Shown here one piece after another: positions 4,179-42,041 of a stretch of 44,102 nt of DNA. The stretch spans positions 1 to 44,102 of the forward strand of contig CACBGP010000004.1 in assembly GCA_902538745.1 (NCBI GenBank), in the 5' to 3' direction. Origin of the DNA: an uncultured Pelagibacteraceae bacterium (GTDB lineage Bacteria > Pseudomonadota > Alphaproteobacteria > Pelagibacterales > Pelagibacteraceae). The translations under genes and the position numbers were made by a program. Every line of letters begins with the position of its first letter. The first letter of the stretch is position 1. The notes beneath the pieces were generated by a model. The model saw only the letters and a list, made by a program, of their open reading frames with translations, searched no databases and was not told where the DNA came from.

Positions 4179-5441
4179 TTATACAGCTAATTTATAAGCA
4201 AAATTTTTTCCAAGATTATCTTTCAAATCGTTGTTAAATCGAGCAGCTTCAGCTCCATCAATTATCCTATGATCATAAGATAAAGATAAAGGTAGAATTG
4301 TTCGTGTTATGAACTTTCCATCAATAAAAATTTGTTTTTTTTGAGATTTACCAACTCCTAGAATTGCGACTTCAGGGTAATTAATAATAGGTGTAAAAAA
4401 AGAACCACCAATACCTCCTAGACTCGTTATAGTCATAGAACCACCAAATAATTCTTTTTTGTCAATTTTAAGATTTCTGCATTGATCACTTAATTTTTTA
4501 AGCTCAGTACCTATTAAAGTTATGTTCTTGTTATCAGCATTTCTTAGTTTTGGTACCATAAGCCCATGCTTTGTATCCACAGCTATTCCAATGTGATAAT
4601 ACTTTTTTAGAGTCATTTTTCCTTTATCAATTTCATCAATAGACGAATTAAAATTTGGAAATTTTTTAAGTGATGCAGTTAAAGCTTTGACAATAAAAGC
4701 TAAAGGAGTAATTTTTTTTTTTTCTCCAGTGTAAATATCTGTTAGAGAAGTTCTAAACTCCTCTAATTCGGTTATATCTGCTTCATCATGATTGGTTACA
4801 TGAGGAATATTAGACCAAGAATTCATAAGATATTTAGATGAAAGTTTTTTTACTCTTGGAATATCCTTTATTTCCGTTTTTCCAAATTCAGAGTGAGGAT
4901 ACTCTAGTTCTATCATTTCATCTTTTTTGAATTCTTTTTCAATATTTCTCTCAGGAGTTTTTGCAACAAATGACTTAACATCACTTTCAGTTACTCTTCC
5001 TAATCTTTCACTACCTTCAACTTTACTAATATCAACACCAAGTTCTCTAGCAAATTTTCTGACTTTTGGTGAGGCTGAAGTCTTTTTTGAAAAATCTTTT
5101 ACGATAATATTTTTTGGTTTAACTTCTTTTTCAATTTCTATTTTGTTTTCTTTGATATTTTCTTTTTTAGTTGATTGTATTACTTTAGTTTCTACATTGT
5201 TGTCTTTTAATTCAATTTCTAAAATCTTACTACCCTCAGAAACCTTATCGCCAACTTTTAAGTTTAATTCTGTAACTAGTCCATCATGTAATGAGGGAAT
5301 TTCAACACTCGATTTATCACTTTCAATTGTGATTAAAGGGTCATTTTTTTTAATCTCTTGACCTTTTTTGATTAAAATTTCAATAACCTCTACATCTTTG
5401 AATTCACCAATGTTTGGAACTTTTATATCTTTTTTGGACAT
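4179..5441 (-). CDS. aceF: Pyruvate dehydrogenase E2, dihydrolipoyl acetyltransferase
   Basis: E2 transfers the acetyl group from lipoate to CoA in the pyruvate dehydrogenase complex. The reading frame is open for 26 more codons upstream, but MSKKDIKVPNIGEF is the proper E2 start, leaving a 1-nt gap after aceE; the protein has 420 residues. The domains are one lipoyl domain (1-78, lipoyl Lys43 in ESDKSSVE), a charged linker, a peripheral-subunit-binding domain (about 122-160, SPKVRKFARELGVD) and a catalytic domain ending in SYDHRIIDGAEA, with His391 and Asp395 as the catalytic pair. Its single lipoyl domain closely resembles the one fused to the adjacent E1. Confidence 0.96.
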   Translation of the reverse strand: MSKKDIKVPNIGEFKDVEVIEILIKKGQEIKKNDPLITIESDKSSVEIPSLHDGLVTELNLKVGDKVSEGSKILEIELKDNNVETKVIQSTKKENIKENKIEIEKEVKPKNIIVKDFSKKTSASPKVRKFARELGVDISKVEGSERLGRVTESDVKSFVAKTPERNIEKEFKKDEMIELEYPHSEFGKTEIKDIPRVKKLSSKYLMNSWSNIPHVTNHDEADITELEEFRTSLTDIYTGEKKKITPLAFIVKALTASLKKFPNFNSSIDEIDKGKMTLKKYYHIGIAVDTKHGLMVPKLRNADNKNITLIGTELKKLSDQCRNLKIDKKELFGGSMTITSLGGIGGSFFTPIINYPEVAILGVGKSQKKQIFIDGKFITRTILPLSLSYDHRIIDGAEAARFNNDLKDNLGKNFAYKLAV

Positions 5442-33300: not shown

Positions 33301-33480
33301 TTATTTTTGTTGCACACACACGTCTTTGATTACTGGCATATTTGCACAATCACCACATTTAGTTTTTTGCACAATACAACCGTCATCAAGAACTTGAACA
33401 TCAACAACTTTATCACATTTGGAACAAGTTGAAGAGATTGTAAGCCCACATTTTTTACAATTATAATTTTCAATTTGCAT
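33301..33480 (-). CDS. 59-residue cysteine-rich putative metal-binding protein
   Basis: The ORF starts MQIENYNCKKC and has eight cysteines in 59 residues, at positions 8, 11, 19, 22, 35, 42, 45 and 55, forming CKKC, CSKC and CGDC knuckles plus two single Cys. The pattern suggests a zinc-ribbon or iron-sulfur/metal storage protein. I recognise no named family. A competing reading frame over the same bases (33330-33515) yields a hydrophobic low-complexity product and is less credible. The gene is preceded by two Fur-type boxes at 33526-33576, which ties it to iron or metal status. It lies downstream of the katG-hydroxylase-DUF2061 genes on the same strand but probably has its own promoter. Confidence 0.72.
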   Translation of the reverse strand: MQIENYNCKKCGLTISSTCSKCDKVVDVQVLDDGCIVQKTKCGDCANMPVIKDVCVQQK

Positions 33481-33525
33481 ATGTACAAAAATAATATGAT
33501 GAAAAATGCTTTCAAGAAAAATCTA

Positions 33526-33540
33526 TGAGAATAATTATCA
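33526..33540. promoter_or_regulatory. Fur-type box 1
   Basis: TGAGAATAATTATCA is a 7-1-7 inverted repeat matching the Fur core TGATAATNATTATCA at all but one defined base. It lies 45 bp upstream of the start of the cysteine-rich gene, within promoter range. Confidence 0.68.
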
Positions 33541-33555
33541 TTAGCACATTTTTTT

Positions 33556-33576
33556 TGATAATGATTATTATTATCA
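33556..33576. promoter_or_regulatory. Fur-type box 2 (overlapping double 7-1-7)
   Basis: A 21-bp segment starting TGATAATGAT and ending TTATTATCA matches the classical overlapping Fur double-dimer site at 19 of 21 positions. It lies 15 bp from box 1. Two adjacent sites strengthen the call. In alphaproteobacteria, Fur-like boxes can be used by Fur or Mur rather than Irr. Confidence 0.72.
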
Positions 33577-34476: not shown

Positions 34477-36714
34477 TTAATTTAATTTCAAGTCAAATCT
34501 GTCCGAATTCATTACTTTAACCCACGCTGCGATAAAATCATTAATAAATTTATCACCTGAGTCCTCACATGCATAAACTTCTGCTAATGCTCTTAATTGA
34601 GAATTTGAACCAAAAATCAAATCAACTCTTGTCGCTTTCCATTTAATTTTTTGAGTTTTTCTGTCTTTCCCGACAAAAGTCTGCTCTGATTTATCTTCTT
34701 CTTTCCAAGTGGTATTCATATCTAGTAAGTTTATGAAATAATCATTTGTCAGATAACCAGGTCTTTTTGTAAAAACACCATGTTCTGAATTGTCATAATT
34801 AGTATCTAAAACTCTCATTCCACCTATTAGAGCTGTCATTTCAGGCGCTGTTAAACCCATCAACTGAGCCTTATCTACTAATTTTTCTTCTGCAGAAACA
34901 TTTGAAGTTCCACCATTCAAGTAATTTCTAAAGCCATCTGCTTGTGGTTCCAGAAGGCCAAATGAATTAATATCAGTTTGGTCTTGTCTCGCATCTCCTC
35001 TTCCTGCTGAAAATGGAACTTTAACTTTATAACCAGCTTTTTTTGCGGCCATTTCGATTCCAACACCACCTGCTAGTACAATTAAATCGGCCATTGAAAC
35101 ACTTTTTTTATTACTGTCAAATTTACTTTTGATTTTACTCAAGGCTTTAATCGCATTTGATAACTTTTTAGGATTATTAACTTTCCAATTTTTTTGGGGC
35201 TCTAACATTATCCTTGCACCATTAGCACCACCTCTTTTGTCTGATCCTCTAAAAGTTGACGCTGACGCCCAAGCGGTTGATACTAAATCTGAAATCGATA
35301 TTTTTGATTTAGAAATTTTATTTTTCAAATCTTTAATATCTTTTGACTTAAGTTTATATTTTGGTTTATCTATTGGATCTTGCCAAATTAACTGTTCTTT
35401 TGGAACTTCACTGCCAAGATAACAAACTCTAGGACCCATATCTCTGTGAGTTAATTTAAACCAAGCTCTTGCAAAAGCATCATGAAACTCTTTTGGATTT
35501 TGATGAAAATGTTTTGTAATAGGGCCATAACTTGGATCAACTTTCATTGAGATATCAGTTGTTTGCATCATTGGTGGGTGTAGCACACCTTTCTTATGTG
35601 CATCAGGAACCATTTTAATTTCTTGACCATTTTTCTTAGGCGTCCATTGGTGGGCACCAGCAGGGCTTTTTGTAAGCTCCCATTCATGTCCATATAAACA
35701 ATCTAAATAGCCCATGTCCCATTTAATGGGATTTTGAGTCCAAGCGCCCTCAATACCACTGCTTATTGTATCAACACCTTTTCCAGATTTGTAACCACTA
35801 TTCCACCCAGTAGACTGGTCTTGAAGTTTTGAAGCCTCAGGATCAGGACCCTTAAATGACTCAGATGCTGCACCATGCGATTTTCCAAACGTATGTCCTC
35901 CAGCAACTAATGCAGCTGTCTCATAATCATTCATAGCCATTCTGCCAAATGTCTCTCTAATATCATGTGCTGCAAGTTTTGGATCTGGATTAGCATCAGG
36001 ACCTTGGGGGTTAACATAAATTAAACCCATATGTGAAGCACCTAATGGTTGTTCTAAATCTCTTTTTCCACTATATCTCTCAACACCTAACATTTCTTTT
36101 TCCGAGCCCCAATAGATATCATCTTCTGGCTCCCAAATGTCTGTTCTACCAGCTCCAAAACCAAAAGTTTTGAAACCCATTGAGTCTAATGCAACATTAC
36201 CAACAAGTATAAATAAATCAGCCCATGAAATTTTTCTTCCGTACTTCTTTTTGATCGGCCATAAAAGTAATCTAGCTTTATCCAAATTCACATTATCTGG
36301 CCAAGAATTAAGGGGAGCAAATCTTTGATTACCTGTTCCAGCTCCGCCTCTACCATCACCAGTTCTGTAAGTTCCTGCAGCATGCCAAGCAAGCCTAATA
36401 AAGAGTGGTCCATAATGACCGTAATCAGCTGGCCACCACTCTTGTGAGTCAGTCATTAATTTTTTTAAATCTTTTTTCAGTGCTTTATAATTAAGTTTTT
36501 TAAACTCTTTAGCGTAACTAAATTTTTTATCCATAGGGTTAGATAAATTTGAGTGCTGACTAAGAATTTTAAGATTTAGGCTATTAGGCCAAAAATCTCT
36601 CACCGTTTGTCCCCGTCCTGCAGAAAACTTTGCGGGTGTTCCTGCCCCCGTAAAAGGACATTTGCTCATTTGATTTGCTTTAAAAGATTTATCTTTAAAA
36701 TTTTCAGTACTCAT
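34477..36714 (-). CDS. katG: Catalase-peroxidase KatG
   Basis: This 745-residue haem enzyme dismutates hydrogen peroxide. The distal triad is Arg107, Trp110 and His111 (RLAWH). The Met-Tyr-Trp crosslink residues Trp110, Tyr233 ([10 protein letters not shown]) and Met259 are spaced as in the family, and the proximal His274 is in [10 protein letters not shown]. Both halves of the duplicated peroxidase fold are present. AAGGAAA precedes the ATG. A near-consensus Irr box lies about 35 bp upstream, next to the irr gene, indicating control by iron/haem and peroxide. As I recall, several cultured SAR11 strains lack catalase, so this gene may be an accessory trait here. Confidence 0.97.
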
Positions 36715-36749
36715 TATTTTCCTTTAGATTAATTAGCTTTAGAAAGTAG

Positions 36750-36766
36750 TTTATAATGATTCTAAA
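36750..36766. promoter_or_regulatory. Irr box (ICE motif) upstream of katG
   Basis: TTTATAATGATTCTAAA matches the alphaproteobacterial iron control element TTTAGAA-N3-TTCTAAA with one mismatch. It is 35 bp before the katG ATG, and another half-site TTTAGAA lies at 36738-36744. The irr gene is immediately upstream. Confidence 0.65.
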
Positions 36767-36811
36767 AAGCTGTCAATTGGTTTAAAATGACGCTAAAGTG
36801 AAAGCAGATAA

Positions 36812-37210
36812 TTAGTCTTCTAGCTTAACAAGAACTTCGACAGATTTAATCTTTTTACCGTTTATTTTTTTTAAGATGTTTATTGGGCCTACATCAGAAT
36901 TTTCTAAATCAATCAACTTTTCATCTTTTAAATCATAAAAATGATGATGATCGGTAACATTTGTATCAAAATAAGTTTGGTTTGAATTAATCGGGATCTG
37001 TTTAAGGTATCCTTTTTTTTCAAAAGCATGAACAGTATTATAAATAGTTGCTAAAGAAATTTTGTTATTTTTTTGCTTCTTAATTTTCTGATCTAGCTCA
37101 TTAATCGTGAAATGAAATGTCTTTTCAGTATCAAATAAAACCTCACATATTTGAAGTCTTTGTTTAGTTGGTCGTAATCCAGAATTTCTCAATTTATCGA
37201 TATATTTCAC
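36812..37210 (-). CDS. irr: Fur-superfamily regulator, Irr type
   Basis: This 132-residue Fur-fold repressor/activator has the winged helix GLRPTKQRLQICEVL...LATIYNTVHAFEKKGYL. The His-rich metal/haem motif DHHHFYDL (His88-90) and the lack of CxxC zinc pairs fit the iron response regulator Irr better than Fur or PerR. Gene order irr-fabA-fabB-fabI is a known alphaproteobacterial arrangement that supports this. The start is ATG 37210. A near-consensus ICE box overlaps its own promoter region, and a second one sits before katG, suggesting autoregulation plus control of katG. Confidence 0.85.
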   Translation of the reverse strand: MKYIDKLRNSGLRPTKQRLQICEVLFDTEKTFHFTINELDQKIKKQKNNKISLATIYNTVHAFEKKGYLKQIPINSNQTYFDTNVTDHHHFYDLKDEKLIDLENSDVGPINILKKINGKKIKSVEVLVKLED

Positions 37211-39806: not shown

Positions 39807-42041
39807 TTAATATAAGTTTTGTCTTGATTTAACAGCTCTTAGCTCTATTAAGTTTTCGTGTCCAACACCATCTTTATCAATTCTGCTAAATACAGATTTA
39901 ATATTCCACCCATTATCTAAAAACCAATCAAATCCAGTTTCCAAAATAATCATTGAGTTATATTTTTTTTCAATAGTTGTATTATATTTGGTTGTTTCTC
40001 CAACAAAGTTAGCTTGTATATCTGATCCATCTGTAAGATCCTTATTAAAATCTATCTTAAAATAAGGAATAAATAATGAGTCGGTAAGGTAAATTTCTTT
40101 CTCAACGGCAGATCCTAAAGAAATTGATGATGTTTCAAGTTCTCTTTTGTCAAATTTTAGCTTTGAACTACTGCTACCTGTCTCAGAATATCCATCAAAA
40201 TTTACAAAACCGAGATCAAATTTGGAATAATTGTGAAATTTATAATTTTTACGGACATTCTTTAAATTATATTTAACCGAACCAAAAATTTGATTTGCTT
40301 TAAATTTACCTTTTACAACATTGGAAGGGTTTGAGGTATCAGTAATACGTGTTGTGGCATAAGTAGTTTTTCCAAACCCTAAAAAAGAATCGATATAATT
40401 TTTTTCAGATCCTTGCCAGGTATTATATAGGGAAAAATTATTTGATCTTGCTAAAAATCCAGTGCTATCTTTAGTGCCTATATTAGATTGATCATCTTCG
40501 CGCCTAAAAACAAGTCCAAATAAAGAACCTTTATTATAATTAACATCTGCACCTAATAAAAAACTCTCAGTTCTATTTATTATTCCTAAATCGCCACCTG
40601 AGCTAAGATTAAGTCTTCCTTTATTAATTGAGCCAGCTGTCCAAAATGCCCAATCTTTTGGTGTCATATTATAATTTTCTTTTAAATATTTTGTTAATGG
40701 TAGTTCACTAATTAAATCATCAATATTTTTTGAGGATAAATTTTTATATTTATCAATGTAATAATCAAATAATTCTGGGGGTATTTGTTCTTTGTAATTA
40801 TTTTGATTAGAAAGAGTCAATTTCATATCTTTAATTCGAGTTGATTTATTAATTCCAACTCTTCTAAACTGTTCCATTCTACGCATAACTTGATTGGTAG
40901 TATTGAACATAAATCTTTTAGCATGTTCTGTTTGTGCGTTTGCCATTCCACTTACTTGTTTGTCATCGAACGCATTGAAACCGCTAACTTCTGTTGATCT
41001 AATTGTTAATGTAGTTTGACCACTTACGGTTGCACTTTCACCAGCTGTTCCACCATATTCAATTACATACGCTCCAGTTGTATCATTTGTGCAATGTAAG
41101 TCATTCCATTTACCTTTTCTGCCTGATGGAGAACCGTACATATGAGCACAATTTTCATCCCCGTCATTTGCAGATGGGTGATCGTTAGGTTCATCAGTTA
41201 ACCAATTTGCATAAGAATAACCTGATGCAACTGTGCAATCCTCATGTGCAGGATCTGCCTTATTAACTCCTGGTGTTGCACTCTCAATTGCTACTTGACA
41301 AAAAAAAGTCTTTCCGTTTTCAGGTCCTGAAACCCATTCCCATGTACCTTCTCCTGCTAGAGCAGTACCTTGTCCTAAATCAAGACTTATAGCTGGATGG
41401 GTATTAGATGTATGTGTTGCATCATCAGATCCACCAATCCAAGTATTGGTACCAATTTTATTTTTAATAAAATTATTCTCAGCTTCACTTGTAATTGTTA
41501 CGAGATAACCTGTAAGACCTAAGTAAGTTGAAGCTTCTGCAGCAGTTTTTGCGTCTTCCCAATTAATAGTTCCAGTTACAAGTTCATAGTAATGACCATT
41601 TCCTGAAAAATAATTAGTACCAGCTGGAGTTACAGCAACAGTAATAGTAGGAGATCCAGCAACGCCATCGCCTTTAAATGATAATGTTGCAAGTGCGTTA
41701 TTAATATCATCTTGAGTTCCTCTAAAACCTATTTCAGTAAGAGAACTACCTGTACACTTAGAAGGGACACTTGAATTATCACTTGTATAATCACAATAGC
41801 CCTGTGCCTGCATTAGATTTGTAACAGAAGTTACCTTTATATTTCCATCCGATGCTACTGCTGAAACGAGGAGAGTTCCTGTATAACCGCTAATACTAGG
41901 TGTTGTTCCTGAACTTGATAATAAAACGAAATCAGTTGTATCAGTTGTTAAAGTTGAAGGCATAGTAACTGTGCCCGAATAAGCTTTATTACCGTTTAAA
42001 AGAAAGATAAAAATTATTAAACTCAAAACAGCTATTCTCAT
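39807..42041 (-). CDS. C-type lectin-domain autotransporter
   Basis: This 744-residue surface protein is not among the conserved housekeeping set. It has a signal peptide (MRIAVLSLIIFIFLLNGNKA, about 1-20), a Thr/Ser/Gly-rich beta region with a Cys pair (about 25-140), and a C-type lectin-like domain (about 148-332). That domain has WIGG (201-204), the EPN triad (284-286), DENC and WND (312-314), the pattern of calcium-dependent mannose-type sugar-binding lectins, plus a conserved terminal Cys pair. A linker follows, then a barrel-like region from about residue 465 to the C-terminal Tyr, with alternating-strand character typical of autotransporter beta-domains. The likely role is attachment to or capture of glycans at the cell surface. 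It sits between convergent fabI and pnp. Confidence 0.82.
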   Translation of the reverse strand: MRIAVLSLIIFIFLLNGNKAYSGTVTMPSTLTTDTTDFVLLSSSGTTPSISGYTGTLLVSAVASDGNIKVTSVTNLMQAQGYCDYTSDNSSVPSKCTGSSLTEIGFRGTQDDINNALATLSFKGDGVAGSPTITVAVTPAGTNYFSGNGHYYELVTGTINWEDAKTAAEASTYLGLTGYLVTITSEAENNFIKNKIGTNTWIGGSDDATHTSNTHPAISLDLGQGTALAGEGTWEWVSGPENGKTFFCQVAIESATPGVNKADPAHEDCTVASGYSYANWLTDEPNDHPSANDGDENCAHMYGSPSGRKGKWNDLHCTNDTTGAYVIEYGGTAGESATVSGQTTLTIRSTEVSGFNAFDDKQVSGMANAQTEHAKRFMFNTTNQVMRRMEQFRRVGINKSTRIKDMKLTLSNQNNYKEQIPPELFDYYIDKYKNLSSKNIDDLISELPLTKYLKENYNMTPKDWAFWTAGSINKGRLNLSSGGDLGIINRTESFLLGADVNYNKGSLFGLVFRREDDQSNIGTKDSTGFLARSNNFSLYNTWQGSEKNYIDSFLGFGKTTYATTRITDTSNPSNVVKGKFKANQIFGSVKYNLKNVRKNYKFHNYSKFDLGFVNFDGYSETGSSSSKLKFDKRELETSSISLGSAVEKEIYLTDSLFIPYFKIDFNKDLTDGSDIQANFVGETTKYNTTIEKKYNSMIILETGFDWFLDNGWNIKSVFSRIDKDGVGHENLIELRAVKSRQNLY

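Follow-up and report, generated by a model that had tools for sequence, protein, structure and literature searches.

A 59-residue protein with eight cysteines is encoded by a short gene in the window (the whole 44,102-nucleotide stretch of SAR11 DNA that was analysed), and two Fur-type boxes lie upstream of its putative promoter. Relatives of the gene retain both the cysteines and the boxes, the same box precedes the iron gene sfuC, and genomes with the gene nearly always encode KatG. We propose, giving this reading an even chance, that the product is a Fur-controlled metal-site protein, activated by iron-loaded Fur (Fe-Fur) and made when iron suffices, which limits iron and peroxide damage alongside KatG. 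The arrangement of boxes and promoter is a new finding of this analysis. The features concerned are the following.

33301..33480 including the stop codon, minus strand: gene for the 59-aa eight-cysteine protein (open reading frame with ATG start; dN/dS; cysteine conservation)
33488..33493, minus strand: putative -10 element, TATTTT, 7 nt before the ATG and 16 bp from the -35
33510..33515, minus strand: putative -35 element, TTGAAA (TTG 33 to 35 nt before the ATG in 191 of 195 regions)
33527..33545, no strand assigned: proximal Fur-type box, exact to GMKAATNATWATYATTMKC, its centre (33536) 21 bp ahead of where the -35 begins
33557..33575, no strand assigned: distal Fur-type box, exact match, 30 bp from the proximal box
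34477..36714, minus strand: katG, catalase-peroxidase of 745 aa (two PF00141 matches in the open reading frame)
36812..37210, minus strand: Irr-type Fur-family regulator beside katG (PF01475, E = 6.7e-20; NCBIfam IrrA, 126.3 bits at a cut-off of 150)

Conservation and distribution of the eight-cysteine protein

The original prediction described an eight-cysteine reading frame of 59 residues with CKKC, CSKC and CGDC knuckles, and the product of 33301-33480 has all three, with cysteines at residues 8, 11, 19, 22, 35, 42, 45 and 55. It was matched in 27 of 101 relatives, comprising 23 close orthologues with upstream boxes (type A) and four members of a distant second type without boxes (type B). 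In a genome collection, 233 stretches proved to be related to it, and 80 of them were retained. Comparison with the window copy gave dN/dS values of 0.034 to 0.181 in 10 cases, and one further comparison was saturated. Because of these matches and the low dN/dS, the reading frame is, judged by comparison of sequences, a real gene and not a chance frame. Homologues with fixed cysteine spacing had been named as the thing to look for in relatives, and they were found: all 106 distinct type A proteins have exactly eight cysteines in the same pattern, CxxC-x7-CxKC-x12-C-x6-CxxC-x9-C. Eight conserved cysteines are what two M(Cys)4 metal-thiolate sites call for, and a pair of such sites, the natural reading of this invariance, is what they most likely form. 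The view of a small, probably metal-binding protein under Fur-type control is thus borne out by the spacing in 106/106 proteins and by the boxes beside orthologues, while the label "iron-sulfur-related" would take its only cue from the cysteines.

Family searches with Pfam and NCBIfam gave no family over its cut-off for the members tried, and PHROGs gave nothing under E 0.06. The Pfam zinc-ribbon models stayed below their cut-offs (DZR, 13.7 against 27.3 bits; Zn_ribbon_3, 11.5 against 27 bits), and for the window protein no rubredoxin, metallothionein or Bfd model in Pfam or NCBIfam matched at E up to 1. In the PDB, the best match by sequence was 6ydh_A, limited to the first 24 residues and at E 0.017. 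Two AlphaFold runs produced models too weak to reveal metal sites (mean pLDDT 56.2 and 66.2), with which Foldseek returned 43 matches, none at E <= 0.001 and zinc-ribbon chains among the non-significant ones. A viral origin was considered and dropped, as no relatives were found in viral contigs (type A and type B queries) or phages (type A query); for plasmids, the search covered type B. The literature within reach, which excluded most subscription papers and all supplements, held no paper recognisably on this protein.

Prevalence was assessed with a profile that combines type A and the distant type B. In the genus, 160 of 399 genomes matched (by E-value, type A in 150, defined as below 1e-26 and assigned by hand, and type B in 10), as did 38 of the 57 that are at least 90% complete; in the order, 177 of 397 genomes matched, spread over 9 of 13 genera. 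In the phylum, 4 of 398 genomes matched, one of them the window's own, and the two outside the order were type B. Absence of the gene is soft evidence throughout, since draft genomes are incomplete. L184 (start not found), together with L024-L027 and other type B members, was left out of the type A counts, L373 (short) out of the tree, and G1065 (no type A search) out of the tables. The list of carriers used with the tree lacked G208, G231 and G158, and the tree has no row for any of the three. HTCC7211 carries the gene (G425, L175, identified by gene coordinates), and the order-wide search gave no match to the combined profile in G443, which we take to be HTCC1062. The published iron transcriptome is that of HTCC1062 (PMC2864753).

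Type B (L024-L027, L281-L283, L289-L291), a paralogue of type A, constitutes a second eight-cysteine family without a named family and also occurs outside the order, in G681 and G869. Its common form has 61 to 64 aa, eight cysteines and a CCGxDM ending. It aligns with type A over the N-terminal half and in most cysteine columns, at 30 to 39% identity, whereas the C terminus differs. No box pair was present in the nine type B upstream regions read, and the best single box scored 15/19 (L027). In different genomes, type A (L021-L023) and type B (L024) both adjoin dapB, with dnaJ near, as if one had replaced the other.

The surroundings of the gene vary. All tested neighbours were the same in 69 of 107 loci, with irr, katG, an aspartyl/asparaginyl hydroxylase-like gene and DUF2061 on one side and SH3, moeB, dut and others on the other; in 25 further loci the neighbours agreed over the part covered, and in 13, four of them type B, none was found. 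Other settings include a lipoprotein/SDR gene, YjbQ-like/photolyase-like genes, dapB/dnaJ, a position beside a GMC oxidoreductase, and fabI/pnp, several of these names being our reading of the sequences. Automatic grouping of neighbours gave at least 10 settings. In one clade (L011, L014, L146, L147, L194, L196), a Redoxin-family gene (PF08534) lies between the eight-cysteine gene and SH3. Elsewhere in the window, 39807-42041 encodes a secreted-looking protein of 744 aa with lectin-like and autotransporter-like stretches, as judged by eye.

Paired Fur-type boxes and promoter geometry

Two Fur-type boxes had been predicted at 33526-33540 and 33556-33576, and both are present, about 46 to 96 bp upstream of the ATG. 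The proximal stretch reads TGAGAATAATTATCA on the plus strand and has one mismatch to the 7-1-7 Fur core, the consensus used for this count; the distal stretch reads TGATAATGATTATTATTATCA. With up to three mismatches, GATAATNATWATNATTATC occurs six times in the window compared to a shuffle mean of 1.26, and six matches were reached in 1 of 100 shuffles; with up to two mismatches, only the two boxes are found, 30 bp apart. A scan of the 852.5-kb draft genome with a related pattern, allowing two mismatches, was exact at these two boxes only and found three further places with two mismatches (contigs C7, C9 and C10), the totals being 5 and 7 matches versus 3 and 5 for a reversed-pattern control. 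The C7 site lies just upstream of a gyrB-like reading frame. A stricter pattern applied to eight genomes gave 3 to 12 matches per strand versus 0 to 5 for its reverse, the control exceeding the pattern in G037.

The boxes were also checked next to orthologues, counting separate boxes with at least 15 of 19 positions within 160 nt. At least two were present in 191 of the 195 type A upstream regions (two in 133, three or more in 58) and one in the other four, three of which (L286, L287, L288) come from other genera. When each of the 195 regions was shuffled, 172 had no box, 22 had one and a single region had two. The boxes are thus found at the promoter above chance and are kept by orthologues, also where the surroundings have changed, as expected of a Fur regulon member, and their conservation indicates that they belong to the eight-cysteine gene.

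Promoter elements were recognized from their fixed distance to the start codon. TTG lies 34 nt before the ATG in 119 regions, 35 nt in 70 and 33 nt in 2; it is found at 36 nt in L078, L085 and L178, and there is none there in L286. Among 32 representatives (under 75% alike), 31 have TTG at 34 or 35 nt, and the hexamer that ends 6 nt ahead of the start codon shows, over 31 representatives, T in 27, A in 30 and the last T in 28. Of 31 other window genes, 2 have TTG at the same place, 2 have TAxxxT and 1 has both. The -10 abuts the ATG, so that the transcript apparently starts at or next to it and would be leaderless. A Shine-Dalgarno sequence was seen in 1 of 32 representatives versus 6 of 31 other window genes; since it is scarce in the latter too, its absence was rejected as proof of a leaderless mRNA, and this reading draws on the position of the -10 and -35.

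A box of at least 15/19 is centred 21 bp upstream of the -35 in 176 of the 191 regions and 22 bp upstream in 10, the other five (L020 group) having a degenerate box there (12-13) and strong boxes farther upstream. A second box of at least 15/19 is present in 188 of 191. Box-to-box spacings are 22 bp (8 regions), 30-32 bp (92), 41 bp (2), 49-51 bp (19) and 60-62 bp (16); in 51 regions the best-scoring second box is at 87 bp, and in L008, which represents that clade, a box at 30 bp scores just as high. The spacings cluster by helical turn, with a resultant of 0.84 for representatives (random 0/5000), 0.78 for distinct values (8/5000) and 0.95 for five hand-chosen classes (169/20000), figures that serve as guides and not as strict probabilities because related lineages share spacings. 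A position upstream of the promoter is the one expected of an activating box, and here the boxes lie upstream of the predicted -35 and in phase.

The box shared with sfuC and the probable direction of the iron response

In the window's genome, the next best box pair after that of the eight-cysteine gene, with one and two mismatches, precedes sfuC, a periplasmic iron(III)-binding gene. A box was found in 29 of 30 sfuC loci, in 22 of them as a pair 22 bp apart. In 21 of the 30, a TGCGACA or TTGACA-like element lies 19 to 24 bp upstream of the box centre, which places the sfuC box over the predicted -10; this pattern was not found at 8 of the 30 loci, and L246 had no box in the stretch cut. The accessible text of PMC2864753 gives sfuC as the most iron-limitation-induced gene of HTCC1062, up 16-fold, and that of PMC13271415 reports that sfuA and sfuB of HTCC7211 are raised when ferrichrome withholds iron. 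The box is thus shared with an established iron-responsive gene in a genome that encodes Fur, and this carries the link to iron beyond motif-spotting, on stronger grounds than the original prediction had.

Several observations were made alongside. Directly after sfuC, L115 has a 60-aa four-cysteine reading frame (4974-5156), for which Pfam gave nothing at E up to 0.01. In L248-L251, one Fur-type box or a pair lies in the gap that separates an alpha/beta-hydrolase-like gene from an Rrf2-suf operon diverging from it, and two relatives have a Fur-type box between nuoA and a tRNA gene (L253, 1722-1740; L254, 1655-1673). Positive regulation of nuo and sdh genes by Fe-Fur is reported for Caulobacter in the part of PMC3751524 at hand.

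The genome encodes Fur, Irr and a Zur-like protein beside the znu genes. Fur is distinct from both others and scores 99.2 bits against the NCBIfam Fur model, below the cut-off of 146. In another genome (G520:C5:56607-57030), the match to fur is split into two parts, each interrupted by a stop; the gene may be broken there, or the draft sequence may contain an error.

The two promoters are alike in having the same palindromic box, often paired, and unlike in its place, about 20 bp downstream of a -35-like element at sfuC and 21 bp upstream of the -35 at the eight-cysteine gene. Because the positions mirror each other about the -35 and helical phase is kept, we infer that Fe-Fur activates the eight-cysteine gene and represses sfuC. 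The original prediction that the gene responds to iron therefore gains support in its link to iron and shifts in meaning: with the boxes upstream of the -35, the gene is more likely on with iron, and the response is probably the reverse of that expected of an iron-starvation gene.

An iron-starvation role, with Fe-Fur repressing the gene, would make the product a companion of sfuC, e.g., a zinc-ribbon protein in an iron-sparing response. Repression is the commonest action of Fur in the portions available of PMC3751524 and PMC7762939, the same box does precede sfuC, and in HTCC7211, itself a carrier of the gene, sfuA and sfuB rise under ferrichrome (PMC13271415). Offshore lineages, which often have katG, are the iron-poor ones in the setting of PMC12636525, so that an iron-starvation gene would fit there too. 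However, wherever a -35 was found, the boxes lie upstream of it and not over the core promoter, with helical phase kept, and sfuC shows where a repressing box is placed. We consider repression rather unlikely, bearing in mind that an upstream box pair could also repress. That a different member of the Fur family, Irr or the Zur-like protein, binds the boxes, or that they serve a different gene, appears very improbable. It is true that irr lies about 3.2 kb from the boxes and that Irr is often a direct activator, as stated in the available part of PMC7762939. Yet the motif is the Fur core shared with sfuC, which makes Irr not the preferred regulator; the boxes keep a fixed distance to the promoter of the eight-cysteine gene in many settings, and no reading frame of at least 60 aa diverges directly from them in the window. 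The ICE motif of Irr differs from the Fur core.

The protein might also be an ordinary structural zinc ribbon, with two zinc ions bound by the eight cysteines and with iron control deciding no more than when it is made, a possible reading on the doubtful side. Its weak matches below cut-off are indeed to zinc ribbons (DZR, 13.7 against 27.3 bits), as are some of the non-significant fold matches, but no zinc-ribbon family matched over its cut-off, the boxes are common to iron genes, and none of the draft genome's strong sites is at znu.

Under the preferred reading, activation by Fe-Fur, the eight-cysteine protein likely forms two M(Cys)4 sites and its gene would be controlled by the iron regulator Fur. 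Bound to paired boxes upstream of a fixed -35/-10, iron-loaded Fur would most likely activate this gene, while from the same box over the sfuC -10 it would repress iron uptake. The protein would then be made under iron sufficiency and, with KatG, limit damage by iron and peroxide, possibly through thiolate sites that hold iron (or zinc) or through rubredoxin-like electron carriage.

Co-occurrence with KatG and comparison with known systems

Co-occurrence was examined in 115 genomes of the genus, comprising the window's own draft and others that are each at least 90% complete. KatG (PF00141) was present in 72 of 115 and PF00210 in 23, both together in none. One PF00210 protein was read, that of G012, which is 138 aa long and encoded beside irr; it is a rubrerythrin (PF02915, E 1.1e-30). 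As an observation on gene order, SAR11 seem to carry beside irr either katG (window 34477-37210) or a rubrerythrin-type gene (L307, 936-1887), never both in the 115 genomes; the adjacency to irr was read in the window and in G012. Without G1065, 61 genomes had type A and KatG, 10 KatG only, 1 (G514) type A only and 42 neither. KatG thus occurs in 61 of 62 type A carriers versus 10 of 52 non-carriers (Fisher, 2e-20, a value that ignores ancestry), and type A in 0 of 23 PF00210 genomes.

Ancestry was taken into account with a 96-row MiaB+Fur tree, built by a quick method and with 29 of 93 inner branches starred, on which type A changes 14 times and KatG 13 times. In 8 starred independent pairs, KatG differed the same way as type A in 5.6, the opposite way in 0 and not at all in 2.4; the sign test gave a median p of 0.031 (range 0.031-0.125) with type A leading, and of 0.0625 with KatG leading (5.3 of 9 pairs the same way). 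PF00210 differed the opposite way to type A in 3.0 of 8 pairs (median p 0.25). After phylogeny, the KatG association is borderline.

It is nearly an even prospect that the link reflects shared ancestry and a shared offshore habit with no working relation. Offshore lineages more often have katG, and most offshore genera share it, as the accessible text of PMC12636525 has it; the habit is a real confounder. The borderline sign test fits this explanation, as does the fact that the two genes are neighbours in many genomes, which makes the co-occurrence partly physical linkage. On the other hand, of the 15 carriers in which the two genes are not neighbours (different contigs, or a distance above 30 kb, as judged by eye from the coordinates), 14 still have KatG, and no independent pair goes the opposite way. 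Ten KatG genomes lack the eight-cysteine gene, a counterpoint to partnership tempered by the incompleteness of drafts. A broader speculation, unlikely to hold in full, is that KatG-bearing SAR11, lacking the rubrerythrin-type gene that other SAR11 have, use the eight-cysteine protein as an iron-on, Fe-Fur-activated iron/redox buffer. Its double Fur operator, which keeps phase, would mirror the repressing operator of sfuC, a single metalloregulator in a minimal genome would switch uptake off and the buffer on simultaneously, and gene and operator would move between loci as a self-contained unit.

As heterotrophs, SAR11 are dominant in an ocean that is often poor in iron, and their regulators are few. 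According to PMC2864753, HTCC1062 has Fur and Irr and no ferritin. If activation by Fe-Fur holds, the eight-cysteine gene would be a predicted iron-induced SAR11 gene and a possible route to handle iron sufficiency in cells without ferritin, and would lend itself naturally to comparing, within a single genome, one Fur box in a repressing and in an activating position.

Among known small proteins, zinc ribbons, rubredoxins, bacterial metallothioneins and Bfd ferredoxins resemble type A in their small size and CxxC knuckles, and their cysteine patterns differ from the eight-cysteine pattern described here. At the level of regulation, direct activation by Fur is known elsewhere, as reviewed in the available text of PMC7762939. 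The genes concerned, including Caulobacter nuo and sdh (PMC3751524, in the part at hand), share with the eight-cysteine gene the Fur-type boxes and a genome that encodes Fur. Unlike them, the predicted Fe-Fur-activated gene described here combines two phase-keeping boxes and an apparently leaderless promoter with a product outside known families.
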